Below, piece by piece: positions 23,205 through 31,404 of a DNA stretch of 64,000 nt. The stretch spans positions 744,001 through 808,000 of the forward strand of contig NZ_JAFEWD010000001.1 of NCBI RefSeq assembly GCF_017355855.1, written 5' to 3'. Numbering within the stretch: the first letter of the stretch is position 1; the number at the start of each line of letters is the position of its first letter. The notes beneath the pieces were generated by a model that did no database searches, was not told the DNA's origin, and worked only from the letters and a program-made list of their open reading frames with translations. The translations under genes and the position numbers were made by a program. Source of the stretch: Pedobacter sp. SYSU D00535. GTDB taxonomy: Bacteria > Bacteroidota > Bacteroidia > Sphingobacteriales > Sphingobacteriaceae.

Positions 23205-23226
23205 TTATATGATATATATCATATAA
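23205..23226. promoter_or_regulatory. 22-bp perfect palindrome, FNR-like operator of nirB
   Basis: Perfect dyad with core TGAT-ATAT-ATCA, matching the half-site spacing of FNR/CRP boxes. Its centre (23215.5) is about 31 bp upstream of the middle of the -7 box, thus roughly -40, where class II activators bind. The likely protein is the Crp/Fnr regulator at 28560-29285. Confidence 0.65.
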
Positions 23227-23242: not shown

Positions 23243-23250
23243 TACATTTG
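23243..23250 (+). promoter_or_regulatory. TAnnTTTG promoter box for nirB
   Basis: TACATTTG, a perfect match; start of transcription would fall about 23254-23258, leaving a leader of about 80 bases that contains the conserved hairpin. Confidence 0.7.
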
Positions 23251-23262
23251 TTATAAATCAAA

Positions 23263-23326
23263 CGGAAAAACAAGAAGTCGCAGCCTTATTTCCGGGAGAG
23301 TAGAAGAAAATAGGTGCTTTAACAAA
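23263..23326 (+). promoter_or_regulatory. Conserved leader hairpin plus tail, copy A (nirB leader)
   Basis: CGGAAA (23263-23268) pairs with TTTCCG (23289-23294), inner pairs AAG (23272-23274) / CTT (23285-23287), presenting GTCGCAG (23277-23283) in the loop. A conserved tail GTGCTTTAACAAA (23314-23326) and TTAAAACCAT lead straight into the nirB ATG. The same loop and tail recur before the long nitrate operon (29785-29852) on a stem of different sequence. Confidence 0.55.
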
Positions 23327-23335
23327 ATTAAAACC

Positions 23336-25837
23336 ATGACAAACGAGAAAGAAACAATCGTAGTAATTGGAAATGGTATGGTTGGTTACAAGTTTTGTGA
23401 GAAACTTGTTGCAAAAACAGATGCTTACCAGATAGTAGTTTTTGGAGACGAACCGAGGCCAGCTTACGATCGCGTTCATTTAAGTGAGTATTTCAACGGC
23501 AAGACCGGCGATGACTTACTGATGAACACACTCGAGTGGTACTCAGACAAAAAGATTAGTTTACACCTGAACGATCCGGTTCAGGAGATTGACCGACATA
23601 ACAAAACAGTCCACTCTCTTAAAGGAATCACACAATCCTACGATTACCTTATTCTAGCTACAGGCTCATCTGCATTTGTACCCGATATCCCCGGCGTAGA
23701 AAAAGAAGGGGTCTTTGTTTATAGGACCATCGAAGACCTGGAACTGATCAGCGCCTATTCGAAAAAGGCTAAAAATGGAGCCGTAATGGGAGGCGGACTT
23801 TTAGGACTGGAAGCCGCGAAGGCCCTACTCGACCTTGGAATTCAGGAAACTCACGTTATAGAGTTCGCACCCCGGCTAATGCCGAGGCAGATTGATTCGG
23901 CCGGAAGCAATATGCTTCAAATGAAACTAAGAGCGCTTGGGCTCCAAATTCATCTGAACAAGAGCACGGCACTTATCGCGGGAGATGGAAAAATTGAGGC
24001 ACTGAACTTTACAGACGACACCACACTACCAGTAGACATGCTGGTTATATCGGCGGGTATTCGCCCACGGGACGAACTCGCTAAGTTAGCAGGATTAGAA
24101 GTTGGAACAAGGGGCGGCATAGTTGTAAATGAGCACATGCAAACGTCTGATGCCAACATCTTTGCAATCGGGGAATGTGCTTTGCACAGCGGCATGATTT
24201 ATGGCTTAGTAGCACCAGGATATGAAATGGCCGAAGTAGCGATTAGCAAAATCGCCGGCGGCGACAAGCAGTTTACCGGGTTCGATATGAGCACTAAGCT
24301 AAAACTGATTGGTGTGGATGTCGCAAGCTTCGGAGATCCGTTTATCAACGAACCTGACTGCAGGACAATCGCTCTTGAGGACACCAGCAAAGGCATCTAC
24401 AAGCGGATCAACATCAGCAAGGATGGAAAAGAATTACTTGGCGGCGTGCTTATTGGCGACGCAGCAGACTACAATATGCTGCTTCAAACCGTTAAGAACA
24501 AACTTGCCCTTCCTCCAAATCCGGAAGATCTGATTCTAGGAGCACGAGGCGGAGCCGTAAATGAAGGCGCAGGAGTAATGAGCCTGCCCGACGATGCCTT
24601 AATATGTTCTTGCGAATCAGTAACGAAAGGAGACATTTGCTGCTCCGTAAAAGAAGAGGGTGTAACATCGCTGGATGGGATAAAAAAATGCACAAAAGCC
24701 GGAACCGGCTGTGGCGGCTGTATTCCGATGGTAAAGGACATCATCACCGGAGCAATGAAAGAGCAAGGCATGTACGTTAAAAACGTGCTCTGCGAACACT
24801 TTGACTACTCCAGACAAGAGCTTCTTGATCTGATTAAGATGAACAATGTCCGCAGCTATGACGAAGTCCTGGATCATTACGGCAGAGGCGATGGTTGCGA
24901 AGTATGCAAGCCAGCAGTAGCGAGCATTCTTTCAAGCCTCTGGAACGATTTGATCGTCAAACAACAACCCATTCAGGACAGTAATGACAGGTACCTGGCC
25001 AACATTCAGAAAGGCGGAACCTACTCTGTTGTACCACGCATTCCAGGAGGTGAAATTACCCCTGAAAAACTGATTGTAATTGGACAGGTAGCAAAAAAAT
25101 ACAACTTATACACCAAAATTACCGGCGGACAGCGCATTGACCTCTTCGGCGCTCACGTCAATGACCTTCCAAACATCTGGGAAGAACTGATCGACGCTGG
25201 ATTTGAAAGTGGACATGCTTATGGAAAATCGCTTAGAACCGTTAAAAGCTGTGTTGGCAGCACTTGGTGCCGCTTTGGCCTACATGACAGTGTATCTTTT
25301 GCAATAGAAGTGGAAGACCGCTACAAGGGAATACGCTCTCCGCACAAGCTAAAAGGCGGAGTAAGTGGCTGCATCCGCGAATGCGCAGAAGCACAGGCAA
25401 AAGATTTCGGGATTATTGCAACTGAAAAAGGCTGGAACCTATACATCTGCGGAAACGGAGGATCAAAGCCACAACACGCCCAGCTACTTGCCGCAGACAT
25501 CGACAAAGAAACCTGCATAAAATACCTGGACAGGTTCCTGATGTTCTACATCAAAACAGCAGACCCGCTGGCGAGAACAGCAACCTGGCTGAACAAAATG
25601 GAAGGCGGAATGAGCTACCTTAAAAACGTGATCATTAACGATAGTCTCGGAATTTGCGAACAACTGGAAGAAGAAATACAAGGCTTGATTGACACGTACC
25701 ACTGTGAATGGGCTGAAGTTGTTAGAAATCCGGAGCTAAGAAAGCGCTTCAGCCATTTTGTAAACGCACCTGAAGAGAAAGATCCAACAGTAGCGTTTGC
25801 CCCTATGCGTGAACAAGTGAAAGCTAAAGAATGGTAA
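23336..25837 (+). CDS. nirB: Assimilatory nitrite reductase [NAD(P)H], large subunit
   Basis: Reduces nitrite to ammonium with NAD(P)H. Domain order in the 833 residues: N-terminal FAD/NAD(P)-binding flavoprotein (VVIGNGMVGYKF near residue 9, second dinucleotide motif MGGGLLGLEAAK near 150); two BFD-like [2Fe-2S] units (CSCESV ... CGGC near 425; CEVC near 520); nitrite/sulfite reductase ferredoxin-like half; siroheme/[4Fe-4S] domain with the ligand motifs CVGSTWC (about 638) and CIREC (about 678). ATG 23336 is chosen over an upstream frame opening at 23228, which would pass through the promoter and the leader hairpin. First gene of nirB-nirD. Confidence 0.95.
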   Translation: MTNEKETIVVIGNGMVGYKFCEKLVAKTDAYQIVVFGDEPRPAYDRVHLSEYFNGKTGDDLLMNTLEWYSDKKISLHLNDPVQEIDRHNKTVHSLKGITQSYDYLILATGSSAFVPDIPGVEKEGVFVYRTIEDLELISAYSKKAKNGAVMGGGLLGLEAAKALLDLGIQETHVIEFAPRLMPRQIDSAGSNMLQMKLRALGLQIHLNKSTALIAGDGKIEALNFTDDTTLPVDMLVISAGIRPRDELAKLAGLEVGTRGGIVVNEHMQTSDANIFAIGECALHSGMIYGLVAPGYEMAEVAISKIAGGDKQFTGFDMSTKLKLIGVDVASFGDPFINEPDCRTIALEDTSKGIYKRINISKDGKELLGGVLIGDAADYNMLLQTVKNKLALPPNPEDLILGARGGAVNEGAGVMSLPDDALICSCESVTKGDICCSVKEEGVTSLDGIKKCTKAGTGCGGCIPMVKDIITGAMKEQGMYVKNVLCEHFDYSRQELLDLIKMNNVRSYDEVLDHYGRGDGCEVCKPAVASILSSLWNDLIVKQQPIQDSNDRYLANIQKGGTYSVVPRIPGGEITPEKLIVIGQVAKKYNLYTKITGGQRIDLFGAHVNDLPNIWEELIDAGFESGHAYGKSLRTVKSCVGSTWCRFGLHDSVSFAIEVEDRYKGIRSPHKLKGGVSGCIRECAEAQAKDFGIIATEKGWNLYICGNGGSKPQHAQLLAADIDKETCIKYLDRFLMFYIKTADPLARTATWLNKMEGGMSYLKNVIINDSLGICEQLEEEIQGLIDTYHCEWAEVVRNPELRKRFSHFVNAPEEKDPTVAFAPMREQVKAKEW

Positions 25838-25879
25838 AAGTATTTTGAACCTCAGTTTAACCCTTAAAAAAATTTGGTG

Positions 25880-26248
25880 ATGGAAATAGAATTAGCAACA
25901 GATCTGAAGTGGATATTAGCATGCAGCACCCTTGATGTTCCTGAGAACGGAGGTGCGTGTATAAAACACGAAGATGAACAGATAGCAATTTTCAATTTCA
26001 GCAGAAGAAACGAGTGGTTCGCCACTCAAAACCTATGCCCTCATAAACAGCAAATGGTTTTATCAAGAGGCATGATTGGCAGCACTGGAGATACTTGCGA
26101 ACCTAAAGTGGCCTGCCCCTTTCACAAGAAAACGTTTTCTTTAGTTACCGGCGAATGTCTAAGCGGAGACGAAGAATATGAAATAAAGACCTACCCCGTT
26201 AAAGTAATCGGCGATAAAGTCTACGTGGGGATAAGATCAACAACTTAA
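25880..26248 (+). CDS. nirD: Nitrite reductase [NAD(P)H], small subunit (Rieske-like)
   Basis: Small partner of NirB with a Rieske fold. Both ligand pairs of a true Rieske [2Fe-2S] centre are visible, CPH (in NLCPHKQQM) and CPFH (in VACPFHKKTF), whereas some NirD proteins lack them. TTG, GTG and ATG lie side by side at 25874-25882; the ATG at 25880 is chosen, giving 122 residues. It follows nirB by 42 bases and ends at a strong terminator. Confidence 0.93.
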   Translation: MEIELATDLKWILACSTLDVPENGGACIKHEDEQIAIFNFSRRNEWFATQNLCPHKQQMVLSRGMIGSTGDTCEPKVACPFHKKTFSLVTGECLSGDEEYEIKTYPVKVIGDKVYVGIRSTT

Positions 26249-26276
26249 AAAAAAGTTGCTGTTGTTAAATATCGTT

Positions 26277-26307
26277 TCCCGGCAGCAATGCCGGGATTTT
26301 TGTTTTT
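26277..26307 (+). terminator. Intrinsic terminator after nirBD
   Basis: Perfect 8-bp stem TCCCGGCA (26277-26284) / TGCCGGGA (26289-26296), GCAA loop, T-rich tail. Confidence 0.92.
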
Positions 26308-26359
26308 AGAAAGGCACTAACAAAAGACCAGCAACAAAAGCAAAAGCAATTTTCAGTTA

Positions 26360-26367
26360 TATCTTTG
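26360..26367 (+). promoter_or_regulatory. TAnnTTTG promoter box for moaCB-moeA
   Basis: TATCTTTG, 24 bases before the ATG at 26391. It shows that this unit is transcribed separately from nirBD. Confidence 0.7.
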
Positions 26368-26390
26368 CGTAAAGAAAGAAATTAGAATCC

Positions 26391-27341
26391 ATGAGGGATA
26401 TCGCACACAAACAAATAACGCTGCGGACGGCAAAAGCTACGGGAATCATTTTTTGCTCTGCCGAAACAATTGAGAGGATCAAGAACAATGGCTTACCGAA
26501 AGGAAACTTGTTTGATGTAGCGCGGGCAGCAGGGTTTATTGGTGCTAAACTTACCCCTCAACTACTTCCTCATTGCCATCCGGTTACCATTGATGGCATG
26601 GAGATTAGCTTTGATTTTCTAAGCCAGGAAAAGCACGCAGAACTTTTTCCTGATGCTGTTTTTTCTCGAATTGGGATCGTAATTTCAGGCGAAGCCAAAT
26701 CTATAGGCAGAACCGGGATTGAAATGGAAATGCTTACGGCAGTAAGCGTAGCTGCTCTGGAGATCTACGACATGCTTAAACCCGTCGACACCACACTCGA
26801 AATTGGACATATTCGACTTTTAGAAAAAAAAGGCGGTAAGAGCGATCGAAAAAAATACTTCAGCACCTCCCCTGTTTGCGCTGTGCTTGTTTGTTCTGAC
26901 TCTTGCGCCGAGGGAAAAAGGGAAGATCGGAGCGGACAACTGATCAAACAAATGCTCGAAAACATCAAGGCCGAGGTTAAATACTACAAAATCCTACCTG
27001 ACGATAAAGAACAAATCCAATCACAAATCAAAGAATGGGTTACTGAGGATGTACATTTTATTTTCACAACGGGCGGCACGGGACTAGGTCCCCGCGACAA
27101 CACAGTTGGTGCTGTAAAGGAAATTTTGGAACGTGACGCGGATGGAATCACGGAGGCCATGCGGAATTTCGGACAAATGCGTACCCCTTTAGCGATGATG
27201 AGCCGTGGCGTTGCGGGATCTATTGCTCAAAGTCTTATTGTCACCCTTCCGGGAAGCACTGACGGAGCACGTGAGTCGCTCGAAGCCATCCTTCCTGCAG
27301 TTTTTCACGCCCGGAAGATGATGAAAGGCGGGGGACATTGA
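26391..27341 (+). CDS. moaCB: Bifunctional MoaC-MoaB (cyclic pyranopterin synthase / molybdopterin adenylyltransferase)
   Basis: Fusion of two molybdenum-cofactor enzymes. Residues 1-150 are MoaC, which makes cyclic pyranopterin monophosphate, with LLPHCHPVTIDG and GRTGIEMEMLTAVSVAALEI. Residues 160-316 are a MoaB/MogA domain, which adenylates molybdopterin, with TTGGTGLGPRDNT and VTLPGSTDGARES. The combined 316-residue form is common in Bacteroidota. It precedes moeA by 27 bases. Confidence 0.93.
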   Translation: MRDIAHKQITLRTAKATGIIFCSAETIERIKNNGLPKGNLFDVARAAGFIGAKLTPQLLPHCHPVTIDGMEISFDFLSQEKHAELFPDAVFSRIGIVISGEAKSIGRTGIEMEMLTAVSVAALEIYDMLKPVDTTLEIGHIRLLEKKGGKSDRKKYFSTSPVCAVLVCSDSCAEGKREDRSGQLIKQMLENIKAEVKYYKILPDDKEQIQSQIKEWVTEDVHFIFTTGGTGLGPRDNTVGAVKEILERDADGITEAMRNFGQMRTPLAMMSRGVAGSIAQSLIVTLPGSTDGARESLEAILPAVFHARKMMKGGGH

Positions 27342-27368
27342 AACAAATTATCTTAAAAGAAACAAACA

Positions 27369-28559
27369 GTGACCGACTTCCACGAAGCACAAGAGACCGT
27401 AATATCTAAAGCCCGTTCTTTTGGGAGCGAAACTATTAATCTGGAAGATGCAGACGGTCGTGTTCTGGCGGAAGATGTTTTTGCTGATCGAAATTACCCA
27501 CCCTTCAATCGCGCAGCAATGGACGGCTTCGCGATCAAATACTCTGACTGGGTAGCAGGCAAACGGAAATTCGGGATACAGGAGCTAATTTTTGCGGGAG
27601 AACAAGCAAAAACTTCCCTTTCCTCGGGGAATGCTTATAAAATAATGACTGGCGCATCTGTTCCTGAATCTGCAGACCTCGTAATCCGCCGGGAGGATGC
27701 CTTGGAAAAGAACGTACAAGAGGTAAGTTTCAACTTGACACAAGTTGTCCCTTTTCAAAATATAGCCAGACAGGGGGAAGATTTAACAGCGGGTGCTCTC
27801 GCCATAACTGCTGGCACAATTTGCAATCCCGCAGTAATAAGCACGCTGGCCACCTTAGGAAAATCGTCTATAAGAGTAGCAAAACTCCCCAGAGTTGCCC
27901 TATTTACCACAGGCGACGAGGTCAAACCCATAGACTCAGAGTTAAGCCCTGTCGAAATCCGGAACAGCAATCAATGGCTGATAAAATCATTGTTGAAGAC
28001 TTGGTTGATAAAGCCGCAAAAGATTCAACATATCGCTGACGAAATGAGCGCCCTAAAAGAAACTATCGCTACTGCCATTAATTTTGATATCATTATTATG
28101 TGCGGGGGAGTATCTGCGGGCGACGCAGATTTTGTTCCTGATGCATTAACAGCGCTGGGAGTCCAAAAACTGTTTCATAAGGTAGCGATAAAGCCTGGAA
28201 AGCCGGTTTGGTGCGGACTGCTTCCCCATGGCGGAATTGTCTTCGCACTACCGGGAAACCCTTTCTCCTGCTTAGTGAATTTCAAGTTACTGATTGAACC
28301 CTACCTCCGGTCGTCTTTCGGCCTCGAGCCCTTAAATACTCGAATTCTTCCATTTGAGGGTCAGCGCAAAAGGAAATCTAATTTAGATGAATTTTTTCCA
28401 GCAAAAATCAAGGGATTTCCGTCACGCTTAACACCAACAGAGATTAATGGATCGGGAGACATCCGGCTAGGCATCGGCGCTGAAGCTTTGGCCTGTCATT
28501 CAAAAAAACATCCCGAACTTGAATCCGGGATGCTCGTCGAATACTATCCTCTCCACTAA
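27369..28559 (+). CDS. moeA: Molybdopterin molybdotransferase
   Basis: Inserts molybdate into adenylated molybdopterin. The GTG start at 27369 gives a 396-residue protein beginning MTDFHEAQETVISKARSF. Landmarks: FNRAAMDGFAI, IMTGASVPESAD, CGGVSAGDADF, KPGKPVWCG and ALPGNPFSCLVNF. Its stop abuts the stop of the converging Crp/Fnr gene, and its last 60 bases also encode that gene's terminator on the other strand. Confidence 0.94.
   Translation: MTDFHEAQETVISKARSFGSETINLEDADGRVLAEDVFADRNYPPFNRAAMDGFAIKYSDWVAGKRKFGIQELIFAGEQAKTSLSSGNAYKIMTGASVPESADLVIRREDALEKNVQEVSFNLTQVVPFQNIARQGEDLTAGALAITAGTICNPAVISTLATLGKSSIRVAKLPRVALFTTGDEVKPIDSELSPVEIRNSNQWLIKSLLKTWLIKPQKIQHIADEMSALKETIATAINFDIIIMCGGVSAGDADFVPDALTALGVQKLFHKVAIKPGKPVWCGLLPHGGIVFALPGNPFSCLVNFKLLIEPYLRSSFGLEPLNTRILPFEGQRKRKSNLDEFFPAKIKGFPSRLTPTEINGSGDIRLGIGAEALACHSKKHPELESGMLVEYYPLH
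28502..28532 (-). terminator. Terminator of the Crp/Fnr gene, lying inside moeA
   Basis: On the minus strand a stem CATCCCG (28532-28526) / CGGGATG (28515-28509) is followed directly by seven T (28508-28502). It lies about 28 bases beyond the regulator's stop codon and wholly within moeA coding sequence. Confidence 0.75.
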
Positions 28560-29285
28560 TTAGAAAACAGGAACAGGAGTATCAGCGATAGAAAAGTCAA
28601 CATCCTGGGTCAACATCAACAGCCTATTCTCGTCGATGATTTTAATATCTTTACCTCTTGTCTCAATGGCCTTCTCCCCAAGCAATTCATTTATAGTACG
28701 AAATACAGTTTCATAAGTAGCCCCGGCGTAAGAAGCAAGATCCTGCCGGGTCAGCTCAAGGCCTATAAACCCATCATCGGTAAGCCCAAACTTTTCTTTT
28801 AGCGTTAGCAACGCCTGAGCTACCCTACCCTTCACCGGCATATGAGCTAAATTACGCATCTTCCTTTCAGACTCCTGCAGTTCATCAGCAAAAAACATCA
28901 TTAGCTTATAAGTAAGTTCGTGATTCACTTTTAGAGTCGCTTCAAAAAAATCTATCGGAATAAAACACACTACACCATTCTCTAGTGCTGTACCGGAAAC
29001 CGGGTAATATAGATTTGTACCAAGCCCGCGATGACCGACAATCGCACCCTCCTGCGCAAAGCGAATGATCAGCTCTTTCTCTGGCCCCCATTTTTTGTGA
29101 ACTTTCACACTTCCCTCGTGGACAAAATAAACCCCGGTTACCGGTTCTCCCTCCCGAAATATGACTTCTCCCTTTTTTACATTATAATTTACCCGATGCA
29201 AACTCAGCGCCGGATGCCACTCTCTTAAACATGATTTACACAGAAAACATCGATTAAGATCACATTGACTTTTACTCCTCTTCAT
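28560..29285 (-). CDS. Crp/Fnr-family regulator with an N-terminal four-cysteine cluster
   Basis: Cyclic-nucleotide-fold transcription factor of 241 residues. Cysteines at about positions 8, 13, 16 and 19 (CDLNRCFLCKSC) form a Cx4Cx2Cx2C cluster of the kind that can hold an iron-sulfur centre, as in oxygen-sensing FNR. The sensor domain follows (VKKGEVIFREGEPVTGVYFV). The helix-turn-helix reads LTRQDLASYAGATYETVFRT, with the E-T-V-x-R recognition residues expected for a TGA...TCA site. The ATG at 29285 is preferred to a 57-codon upstream extension with no family sequence. It lies between the two nitrate-pathway transcription units and is the best candidate for their regulator. Confidence 0.88.
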   Translation of the reverse strand: MKRSKSQCDLNRCFLCKSCLREWHPALSLHRVNYNVKKGEVIFREGEPVTGVYFVHEGSVKVHKKWGPEKELIIRFAQEGAIVGHRGLGTNLYYPVSGTALENGVVCFIPIDFFEATLKVNHELTYKLMMFFADELQESERKMRNLAHMPVKGRVAQALLTLKEKFGLTDDGFIGLELTRQDLASYAGATYETVFRTINELLGEKAIETRGKDIKIIDENRLLMLTQDVDFSIADTPVPVF

Positions 29286-29784
29286 AGCAACATTCTTATT
29301 TTTTAAATAAACGCGAAACAACAAAAGAGAAAAACGAGGGAAACAAAACGATGTGCAACAAAAAAAATCGCCTAAAAATACATTAAAATAAAGCAAAGAC
29401 GACAATGACAAGCAAAATAAAGCCATGAACCTTAAAAAAACGAAGTAAAACTTCAAAAAATCGGCCTCAATCCGAATAAAAACAGCTAAAATTTCTTACA
29501 ACTTTCTTCAGACACCAAAAAAATAACACTATTTCCTATTAAAGAAGTGTCAAAATGAAGCTATCTAGCAATTATATCTTTATTAAAATCAAAATTTGCA
29601 GCCATTTTCATTAAATAAATCATATTAATTCACTTTTTCTCGTGATAAAATTGACATTAAGTATTAATTACAATAACTTTATCACATTCAAAAAGAGAAA
29701 AACAAGCAGAAAAATCAAAAACGATACTAAAAATGATAAAAAGGAGAAGAATTTGAGGTAGAAAAACTTAAAAACCATAAAAAA
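29286..29784. other. AT-rich divergent control region of the regulator and the long nitrate operon
   Basis: About 500 bases without a gene. It contains the shared blocks CAGCCATTTT (29599-29608) and TTTCTCGT (29636-29643), the inverted repeat at 29642-29685, and the first copy of a 14-base repeat, AACTTAAAAACCAT (29765-29778). The only plus-strand -7-like box is TAACTTTA (29674-29681), one mismatch from consensus; no FNR-like palindrome like that at nirB is seen. Confidence 0.6.
29642..29685. repeat. 8-bp inverted repeat in the nitrate operon control region
   Basis: GTGATAAA (29642-29649) and its complement TTTATCAC (29678-29685), with a 28-base spacer. The right arm overlaps the -7-like box TAACTTTA. 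It may be a binding site for a dimeric or looping regulator. Confidence 0.5.
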
Positions 29785-29852
29785 CCCCGAATGGAGGTCG
29801 CAGTCCAGCCGGGGCATAAAGTTTCAAGTGCTTTAACAAACTTAAAAACCAT
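29785..29852 (+). promoter_or_regulatory. Conserved leader hairpin plus tail, copy B (long nitrate operon)
   Basis: CCCCG (29785-29789) pairs with CGGGG (29810-29814), and TGGA (29792-29795) pairs with TCCA (29804-29807), leaving GGTCGCAG (29796-29803) in the loop. After 24 bases follows GTGCTTTAACAAA (29828-29840), then AACTTAAAAACCAT (29839-29852), ending 4 bases before the ATG. The loop and tail match copy A at nirB while the stems differ in sequence but keep pairing. Confidence 0.58.
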
Positions 29853-29856
29853 TCAA

Positions 29857-31404
29857 ATGTACAAAAAACTTATCACTCACAAATCCAAAGTGAAAGTTGT
29901 GAGCGGGATGTCGCTACTGCTCACTATTTCATCTACAACACTTGGCCAGGTTGCAATCGACGGACAACTTCGTGGTCGTGGGGAAGTTAGAAACGGCACA
30001 GGAACCCTCAGGCCTGTCACTTACGATGCCGCTGCTTTCATTTCGCAACGAACCCGCCTTAACTTCAACTACAAGTGGACAAGATTGAACTTTAGAGCAT
30101 CGATTCAAGATGTAAGAGTGTGGGGACAGGATGCTTCGACCATCAGTATGGCCGACGGGAACAGACTCACGGTCCACGAAGCTTGGGCAGACGTTATCCT
30201 ATCAAACAAAAAAGACTCAACCTTCAAGAGCTCTCCTTTTGAATTTTTAAGTACAAAACTTGGTAGGCAGGAAATTGTGTATGATGACGCCCGCCTTCTA
30301 GGCAACCTGGACTGGCTGCAGCAAGGTCGCCGGCATGACGCGGTTATTCTGAAATTAGTGCAAAAGGGGTGGCAAATAGATTTAGGAGCAGCTTTCAATC
30401 AAAACACCGACGCATTCAACTACAACGGCACGTATTATACTCCGGCAAACATCAACGCTACCGTCAAAGACAGCAAGGGCAATTTGGTTAACACGCCGAC
30501 TGGACTCATTCCCCTTGTAAATGCCAGCGGATTGAGTTCAAAAAATGGAAGCCCCGCTTTTAATGGCCCCATATCTACCAATGCAGCCACCCAGAATTAC
30601 AAGAGCTTCGAGTATCTATACGTGGCCAAAGGCTTTAATAAGCTGAAACTTTCCGGATTGTTTTTCATGGATCAATTCGCCAAGTACAGATTAGACTCGG
30701 TAGCAAATAGCGCTGGTTCAGACGCGGCCTATGTTTACGGCAGAAGATTCAATCAAAAAGGCACTAATAATCGATTTACAACAGGTTTATTTCTCACGGC
30801 TCCAATTGGTAGCAAAACACAATGGATGTTAAACGCAAGTGCCTACTACCAAGGTGGAAAAGACCGCGACGGACTCGATCTGAGTGCCTACATGGCTACC
30901 TTTTCTATAGGATACAACAGAGCACTTTTCAACTACAGTATCGGACTTGATTATCTATCGGGCAACGATGCTTCCACACCCACTACTGAGAACCGCCGGT
31001 TTGATCCCCTTTACGGGACGCCGCATAAGTTCTGGGGGCTGATGGATTACTTCTATGCGGGAACAGGAGCGCCTGTAGGCGGACTTAGTAACCCTTTTGC
31101 AAAGATCAAGTACAGCAGCAAAAACAAGCGCTTTGTTTCCAATCTGGACTACCATTATTTCGCCTTTGCGAATGACAGACTAGATGCAGCGGGAAATCCT
31201 TTGAAAGCCTATCTGGGTAGTGAGATCGACTTTATCAATTCCTACACACTCAACAAGATCACCGCAGTAGAATTAGGTCTGGCTTATCTGGCTGCAACCA
31301 GAAGCATGGAATATGCAAAAGGCGTAACCCCGAACTCCACCAAGCTAAACAATACCTGGGCTTATCTTCAAATAAACATCAAACCCGACTTCCTTTCAAA
31401 ATAA
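29857..31404 (+). CDS. Outer-membrane beta-barrel (alginate-export-like porin)
   Basis: Predicted outer-membrane channel, first gene of the long nitrate operon. Signal-like N-terminus (MYKKLITHKSKVKVVSGMSL ... TTLGQ, cleavage about residue 31), then alternating beta-strand sequence and a C-terminal strand ending LQINIKPDFLSK. The opening RGRGEVRNGTG and TKLGRQEIVYDDARLLGNLDW resemble the alginate-export family (Alginate_exp). Given its place next to NrtABC, it probably passes nitrate or nitrite through the outer membrane, which is inference. ATG 29857 gives 515 residues; an earlier ATG (29791) would lie in the leader hairpin. Confidence 0.75.
   Translation: MYKKLITHKSKVKVVSGMSLLLTISSTTLGQVAIDGQLRGRGEVRNGTGTLRPVTYDAAAFISQRTRLNFNYKWTRLNFRASIQDVRVWGQDASTISMADGNRLTVHEAWADVILSNKKDSTFKSSPFEFLSTKLGRQEIVYDDARLLGNLDWLQQGRRHDAVILKLVQKGWQIDLGAAFNQNTDAFNYNGTYYTPANINATVKDSKGNLVNTPTGLIPLVNASGLSSKNGSPAFNGPISTNAATQNYKSFEYLYVAKGFNKLKLSGLFFMDQFAKYRLDSVANSAGSDAAYVYGRRFNQKGTNNRFTTGLFLTAPIGSKTQWMLNASAYYQGGKDRDGLDLSAYMATFSIGYNRALFNYSIGLDYLSGNDASTPTTENRRFDPLYGTPHKFWGLMDYFYAGTGAPVGGLSNPFAKIKYSSKNKRFVSNLDYHYFAFANDRLDAAGNPLKAYLGSEIDFINSYTLNKITAVELGLAYLAATRSMEYAKGVTPNSTKLNNTWAYLQINIKPDFLSK

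Follow-up and report, generated by a model that had tools for sequence, protein, structure and literature searches.

Why do two operons of the nitrate pathway, one opening with the nitrite reductase gene nirB and the other with an outer-membrane porin gene, carry the same hairpin loop and the same tail immediately before their start codons? Both leaders lie in a 64,000-nucleotide (nt) stretch of Pedobacter sp. SYSU D00535 DNA (assembly GCF_017355855.1, contig NZ_JAFEWD010000001.1, positions 744,001 to 808,000), called the window here, in whose numbering all positions are given. The original prediction, made from the letters alone, had read them as two copies of one cis-acting, riboswitch-like leader hairpin. 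Our comparison of related leaders indicates that the porin leader probably carries, on the minus strand, the gene of an antisense small RNA (sRNA) of about 72 nt, and that the nirB leader is its target.

One motif in two leaders

The following features define the two leader elements.

23263-23294, plus strand: nirB leader hairpin with a CGGAAA/TTTCCG stem, the proposed target
23276-23283, plus strand: loop motif of the nirB hairpin, AGTCGCAG
23314-23326, plus strand: tail of the nirB leader, GTGCTTTAACAAA
23316-23324, plus strand: nirB copy of GCUUUAACA, separated from the ATG by 11 nt and kept in nirB-type leaders
23336, plus strand: nirB start codon, ATG
29785-29814: porin-operon hairpin, the second hairpin of the original prediction (CCCCG/CGGGG with inner TGGA/TCCA), which read on the minus strand would be the terminator of the predicted sRNA
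29796-29803: porin-leader loop, GGTCGCAG in the plus-strand reading
29828-29840, plus strand: tail of the porin leader, GTGCTTTAACAAA
29857, plus strand: porin start codon, ATG

The loop motif and the tail GCUUUAACA are common to both leaders, at coordinates that held when rechecked. The exact pattern GTCGCAG-N10-40-GTGCTTTAACAAA has only two sites in the 4.9 Mb genome, which are these two leaders, and the reversed control has none, confirming that the element is shared by the two operons. The 8-nt loop reads GGUCGCAN in the majority of relatives seen, and the nirB copy of the window (AGUCGCAG) deviates from it at the first base. An Rfam scan of the 64-kb window identified no family at gathering score, in keeping with the earlier view that this is not a known riboswitch; at E <=10 there were weak matches only, of which the one with the best E-value fell far under its threshold.

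Strand constraint and a predicted small RNA gene

We compared the leaders in two alignments, A1 with 33 of the 38 unique porin-type rows and A2 with 32 of the 33 nirB-type rows, identical or near-identical rows being omitted. In 32 nirB-type leaders, 82.8% of the cells of the stem pair, versus 33-52% for slid versions of it, and the covariation score was matched by none of 500 shuffles. The non-Watson-Crick pairs in the core of 64 unique nirB-type hairpins comprise 153 G-T and 29 A-C, a G-T excess as expected of a plus-strand RNA. In the core of 40 unique porin-type hairpins we counted 32 A-C and 6 G-T, and the contrast between the two types is strong (Fisher 7e-16). A plus-strand A-C pair corresponds to a G-U wobble in the minus-strand RNA. 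With pairs beyond the core included, the porin-type count is 35 A-C versus 22 G-T (Fisher 1.2e-10), and without end trimming it is 43 versus 26. When hairpins were folded with their flanks and the loop held open, 35 of 49 unique ones were more stable as the minus strand.

These counts suggest that the nirB hairpin is under plus-strand and the porin-leader hairpin under minus-strand RNA constraint. The covariation proposed for both stems thus stands for the nirB stem, on the plus strand, but not for the porin-leader hairpin. Likewise, the stems do differ while both pair, as first described, but one hairpin resembles a target and the other an sRNA terminator.

On the minus strand, the porin leader contains the following predicted features.

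29850-29779, minus strand: predicted sRNA gene of about 72 nt, its 5' end at 29850 or 29849 and its 3' end in the U-run 29784-29779
29854-29861, minus strand: predicted sRNA promoter -7 box, TACATTTG, overlapping the porin start codon (CAAATGTA on the plus strand)
29880-29883, minus strand: possible -33 element TTTG, 18 nt from the -7 box, proposed from the sequence only
29796-29803, minus strand: predicted sRNA terminator loop CUGCGACC, complement of GGUCGCAG, proposed to kiss the nirB loop
29830-29838, minus strand: UGUUAAAGC, complement of GCUUUAACA, proposed as the second pairing site of the sRNA

The box TACATTTG fits the Bacteroidota -7 consensus TAnnTTTG, and its spacing to the predicted +1 agrees with the location of that consensus at -12 to -5, as described in the consulted part of PMC9723704. 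All 68 unique loci found with a regular expression demanding ATGTA(C/T) have it on the minus strand, as do 64 of 64 when the ATG was not demanded. Because the motif expressions require GTCG in the loop together with GCTT(T/A)AACA, plus ATGTA(C/T) at porin-type loci, worn copies (L249, L263 and the nirB leader of G006) fall outside the counts based on them. The predicted +1 is a purine in all 68 loci (43 G, 25 A), and the four bases after the box are the least conserved (55% identity), flanked by blocks of 97% and 91%. The predicted sRNA block, bounded by the -7 box and the U-run, has a mean identity of 91% over the 68 unique loci, which falls to 61% upstream of the A-run that is the terminator U-run on the minus strand.

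This A-run, of at least four bases beside the stem, is present in 68 of 68 porin-type loci. The statement that no terminator run follows the hairpins accordingly holds for the plus strand but fails for the minus strand, where six U (29784-29779) follow the porin hairpin. The locus has the signals expected of an independently transcribed base-pairing sRNA: a putative promoter of its own, with -7 box and purine +1 at an atypical -33 spacing, and a putative intrinsic terminator with a GC-rich stem, the U-run and minus-strand wobbles. The predicted sRNA folds at -21 kcal/mol (z -2.25), and 4 of 200 shuffles fold equally well.

The porin start codon provides a further sign. Its -3 base is C in 68 of 68 porin-type leaders, versus 34 G, 17 A, 9 C and 6 T in nirB-type leaders. 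Since A at -3 promotes translation initiation in Flavobacterium (consulted part of PMC6847099), the invariant C is not explained by translation; it is part of the minus-strand -7 box. The leader and first codons also persist where the gene behind them has 67 or 39 codons, or encodes a protein of 440-479 aa unlike the window porin (reduced or replaced genes at L034, L040, L102, L113; L016, L025, L033, L035, L036, L037; porin absence being defined as no tblastn match at 1e-8). A plus-strand leader by itself would not easily account for box, variable bases, purine +1, A-run, C at -3 and leader persistence.

We consider it rather unlikely that a plus-strand cis-regulatory RNA acts in both leaders, with GGUCGCAN and GCUUUAACA binding a metabolite or an RNA-binding protein that controls translation. 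Such an RNA would account for the same loop and tail near both start codons and for the plus-strand covariation of the nirB-type hairpin, and upstream promoters place both elements within mRNAs; however, the porin-type hairpin has plus-strand C-A mismatches that are minus-strand wobbles, the window has no Rfam match at gathering score, and the invariant CAAATGTA, the four variable bases, the A-run and the C at -3 are left unexplained. The stricter proposal of two copies of one riboswitch-like hairpin is contradicted by the opposite strand constraint and by the minus-strand promoter and terminator signals of the porin copy, and the earlier interpretation as a shared cis-element is therefore only partly supported.

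Distribution among relatives and predicted pairing with nirB

The loop and the tail GCUUUAACA stand before both operons in Desertivirga and in about half of the Mucilaginibacter genomes, as anticipated if orthologous nirB and porin/narK leaders conserve the element. Among 80 named loci found via NirB, the strict motif was identified before nirB in 31 and before a porin-type start (MYK...) in 29, and the element is absent from the Pedobacter, Pontibacter, Hymenobacter and Chitinophagaceae nirB leaders of this set. We searched further with two covariance models, R1 for porin-type and R2 for nirB-type leaders, stricter filters being used for searches over more than 40 genomes. R1 (E <=0.01) identified the porin-type element in 76 of 149 Mucilaginibacter genomes and NirB (E <=1e-150) was likewise found in 76 of 149, the two together in 73. 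R2 matched in at least 73 of the 76 NirB genomes, and directly before nirB in at least 72. Of the four NirB genomes without such a match directly before nirB, three (G631, G632, G639) have a NirB cut short in the match and one (G140) a NirB 70% identical. Three genomes have an R1 match and no NirB above the cut (G638, G641, G647), of which G641 has a partial nirB with the motif, under the cut.

Across 247 phylum-wide genomes, R1 gave 8 matches at E <=0.1, strong only in the genome under study and one Mucilaginibacter; the other six are weak and, by eye, contain none of the motifs. In 121 genomes of the family, R2 gave 13 matches, the strong ones in the organism's own genus and Mucilaginibacter, and the weak remainder was checked by eye at G071 only. 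When eleven covariance-model match sites were inspected by eye (a third copy in the genome under study and ten others), the third copy alone was convincing. Consistent with the expectation that the loop should not occur at many unrelated genes, the convincing ones among the matches listed for the 149 Mucilaginibacter genomes precede nirB or the porin/narK operon, with the exception of two relic or orphan copies.

These two, L249 (G625:C15:382546-382622) and L263 (G211:C19:137875-137947), are stray porin-type leaders beside Crp-type genes, with the porin missing. L249 lacks GCTTTAACA but still has the hairpin, the U-run and the -7 box, and L263 is decaying and has lost CAAATGTA. The third copy, which is looser (G000:C14:247530-247608, L127:1501-1579; R2 45.2 bits, E 4.4e-5), has stems unrelated to those of the other two and sits shortly after a TATATTTG box, between SelO (minus strand) and a 4HBT thioesterase gene (plus strand). 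By eye, a possible 13-codon reading frame from GTG and a 7-pair stem before UUUU lie downstream of it. This copy was not found when we looked beside the thioesterase homologues in two further Desertivirga genomes and in four of Mucilaginibacter. The nirB leaders of Niastella (L059, L062, L063, L068, L069) have another short inverted repeat (TTGCCTGCG or TTGCTGCG) followed by CGCAG close to the ATG, which may be a leader element of another kind.

The nirB leader has conserved complementarity to the predicted sRNA near its start codon. The columns of UGUUAAAGC are 100% conserved, in loci selected by an expression that fixed this motif except for its fifth base. In the window, the predicted sRNA-nirB duplex has an energy of -55.2 kcal/mol, the next best non-cis start among 29 tested reaching -35.5. 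Over 62 genomes (62 of the 63 pairs), the mean is -40.7 versus -19.8 for shuffled leaders, and in 60 of the 62 none of 40 shuffled leaders matches the real duplex energy. These energies are not independent evidence, because they follow from the shared motifs. A pseudoknot or kissing contact within one leader, between the loop GCA and the UGC before UUUAACA, was also considered and rejected, several clades having GCAC/GCUC with ACGC by eye.

Several observations weigh against an sRNA gene with nirB as its target. On the NirB tree of 63 genomes, where gains were counted because the sequences are related, there are only 12 independent gains of A-C versus 5 of G-T (A-C states occupying 56 cells and G-T states 5), and the plus strand is the more stable in 11 of the 49 folded hairpins. 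The spacing of the possible -33 element is short or atypical, with TTG at 17-23 nt in 3 of 68 loci and at 16 nt in 41 of 68, and an automatic terminator scan of the minus strand gave a shifted hairpin overlapping 29785-29814. In some nirB leaders, the loop is not fully complementary to that of the sRNA (GGTCGCTC, GGTCGTAT, and AAACGCAG in G006, whose nirB copy retains only CGCAG). Covariation in trans is weak and rests on few changes: the nirB/porin combination at the base before GCUUUAACA is C/T in 0 of 63, A/C in 3, and A/T, C/A and G/T in 1 each. A second stem around GCUUUAACA was tested for covariation, gained no support and was rejected. Finally, in G212, which belongs to a different genus within the family, the porin-type locus is on one contig and nirB on another, the nirB leader being without the element; any sRNA action there would be in cis only, or the locus would have been acquired recently.

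Gene context and a possible nitrate circuit

The surrounding genes and promoters are as follows.

23336-25837, plus strand: nirB, nitrite reductase large subunit (Pfam), first gene of nirBD-moaCB-moeA
29857-31404, plus strand: Alginate_exp-type outer-membrane porin (Pfam E 1.9e-11), first gene of the nitrate operon
28560-29285, minus strand: Crp/Fnr-type regulator gene (Pfam), between the two operons
23243-23250, plus strand: putative nirB promoter -7 box, TACATTTG
29651-29681, plus strand: likely porin-operon promoter, TTG-N20-TAACTTTA, the box being conserved in an alignment of 32 upstream regions

After the porin, the nitrate operon continues with genes for NrtABC-like transport, an MFS transporter, nitrate reductase and the molybdenum cofactor. 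The position of the nirB box, recognised by its sequence, would put the start of the nirB transcript near 23255; the hairpin, beginning a few bases further on, would then lie at the 5' end of the mRNA. A perfect palindrome, TTATATGATATATATCATATAA, lies at 23205-23226, its centre about 40 nt before the likely nirB start, an arrangement typical of sites for Crp/Fnr-type activators; similar sites occur in relatives both with and without the RNA element. In many Mucilaginibacter porin leaders (e.g. L012, L034), a short GCCTATG is conserved about 40 nt upstream of the hairpin, which the window does not have.

The divergent regulator gene raises the alternative that the minus-strand hairpin is an attenuator in its leader, the nirB match being a site for the same factor. 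The gene does lie downstream on the same strand, and the two stray leader copies sit, by sequence, beside Crp-type genes; however, the regulator gene begins about 490 nt past the terminator, five loci (L019, L029, L031, L032, L042) retain the element where tblastn of the fetched locus found no Crp/Fnr-type neighbour, and the nirB element is left unexplained, so we regard this as very improbable. We give equally little credence to a mere insulating terminator against antisense transcription, with the shared motifs as remnants of an old leader duplication: the relic or orphan copies L249 and L263 show that the region can duplicate, but loop and tail are near-invariant across the genus while stems and spacers diverge, and drift would not preserve loops and spare stems.

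Returning to the antisense sRNA, we infer its transcription, the kissing contact, the repressive sign and the physiological logic. Its promoter would overlap the porin start codon, and its terminator would be the porin-leader hairpin. Recognition would rest on two segments of the sRNA: UGUUAAAGC, close to the 5' end, and UGCGACC, in the loop of the terminator. As an antisense RNA in cis, it would be complementary to the porin/nitrate-operon mRNA leader; in trans, its terminator loop would kiss the GGUCGCA loop of the nirB 5' hairpin while UGUUAAAGC paired with GCUUUAACA just before the nirB start codon. The expected outcome would be a block on translation of both nirB and the porin operon. Bacteroidota initiate translation using an A-rich stretch (consulted part of PMC6847099); the nirB ATG stands 11 nt after GCUUUAACA, in such a stretch, and repression is therefore the likely outcome. 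The likely porin-operon promoter lies about 100 nt upstream of the porin-leader hairpin, so that the porin mRNA would span the whole sRNA, which should be opposed by convergent transcription. With the porin operon transcribed through the locus, the sRNA would be reduced or titrated, and nitrite reductase would therefore rise only once nitrate import is on.

We advance the full three-part circuit tentatively, as a possibility. In it, the sRNA would kiss the nirB hairpin via its terminator loop, repress both operons and be cleared by nitrate-operon transcription; the third copy (C14:247530), with a -7 box of its own, would serve as a sponge, and the sRNA locus would have outlived loss or replacement of the gene it overlaps.

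The design has parallels in known systems. As in OxyS-fhlA, there would be two short loop contacts, one of them near a start codon; the sequence is unrelated, and OxyS is purely trans-encoded and relies on Hfq. ANTAR target RNAs, which act in nitrate-operon antitermination, have a pair of hairpins whose six-base loops carry A at the first and G at the fourth position, whereas the loop here is of 8 nt, GGUCGCAN. NsiR1 (nitrogen-stress-induced RNA 1, Rfam RF02399) is cyanobacterial. Its weak match on the minus strand of the porin-leader locus (20.5 bits, E 0.029) does not reach the gathering score of 39, and a search of four other loci, two of them with an intact porin-type element (L246, L280), gave no match; it probably reflects a shared terminator shape.

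Closer in kind are DonS and the DonS-like cis-antisense sRNAs, which the consulted part of PMC7366714 describes in Bacteroides polysaccharide loci. Like them, the predicted RNA would be a Bacteroidota sRNA lying antisense to the beginning of an operon for nutrient uptake whose first gene encodes an outer-membrane protein, and in both cases repression is proposed. The operon here is for nitrate, however, and begins with an Alginate_exp-type porin and not a susC-like gene of a polysaccharide locus, and the predicted sRNA would also act in trans on nirB via a conserved target hairpin. GibS of Bacteroides thetaiotaomicron, described in the same source, is also a Bacteroidota sRNA that pairs over the start codons of metabolic genes, but it is about 145 nt long, has a single-stranded 5' seed and responds to N-acetylglucosamine (PMC7366714); we set it apart by description only. 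The titles and abstracts of the literature found contain no report of this element or of the sRNA link. The kind is thus already known from the DonS-like antisense RNAs of Bacteroides (PMC7366714, in the part consulted), whereas, as judged from titles and abstracts, no precedent appears to exist for the sRNA family, the nitrate circuit or the cis-plus-trans design.

Conservation, opposite strand constraint and promoter and terminator signals, all drawn from sequence comparison, point to an sRNA gene and its target, and strand-specific wobble counts can in this way divide what appears to be a single repeated leader motif into two such parts. If true, this would mean that in Bacteroidota an RNA connects the import of nitrate with the reduction of nitrite.

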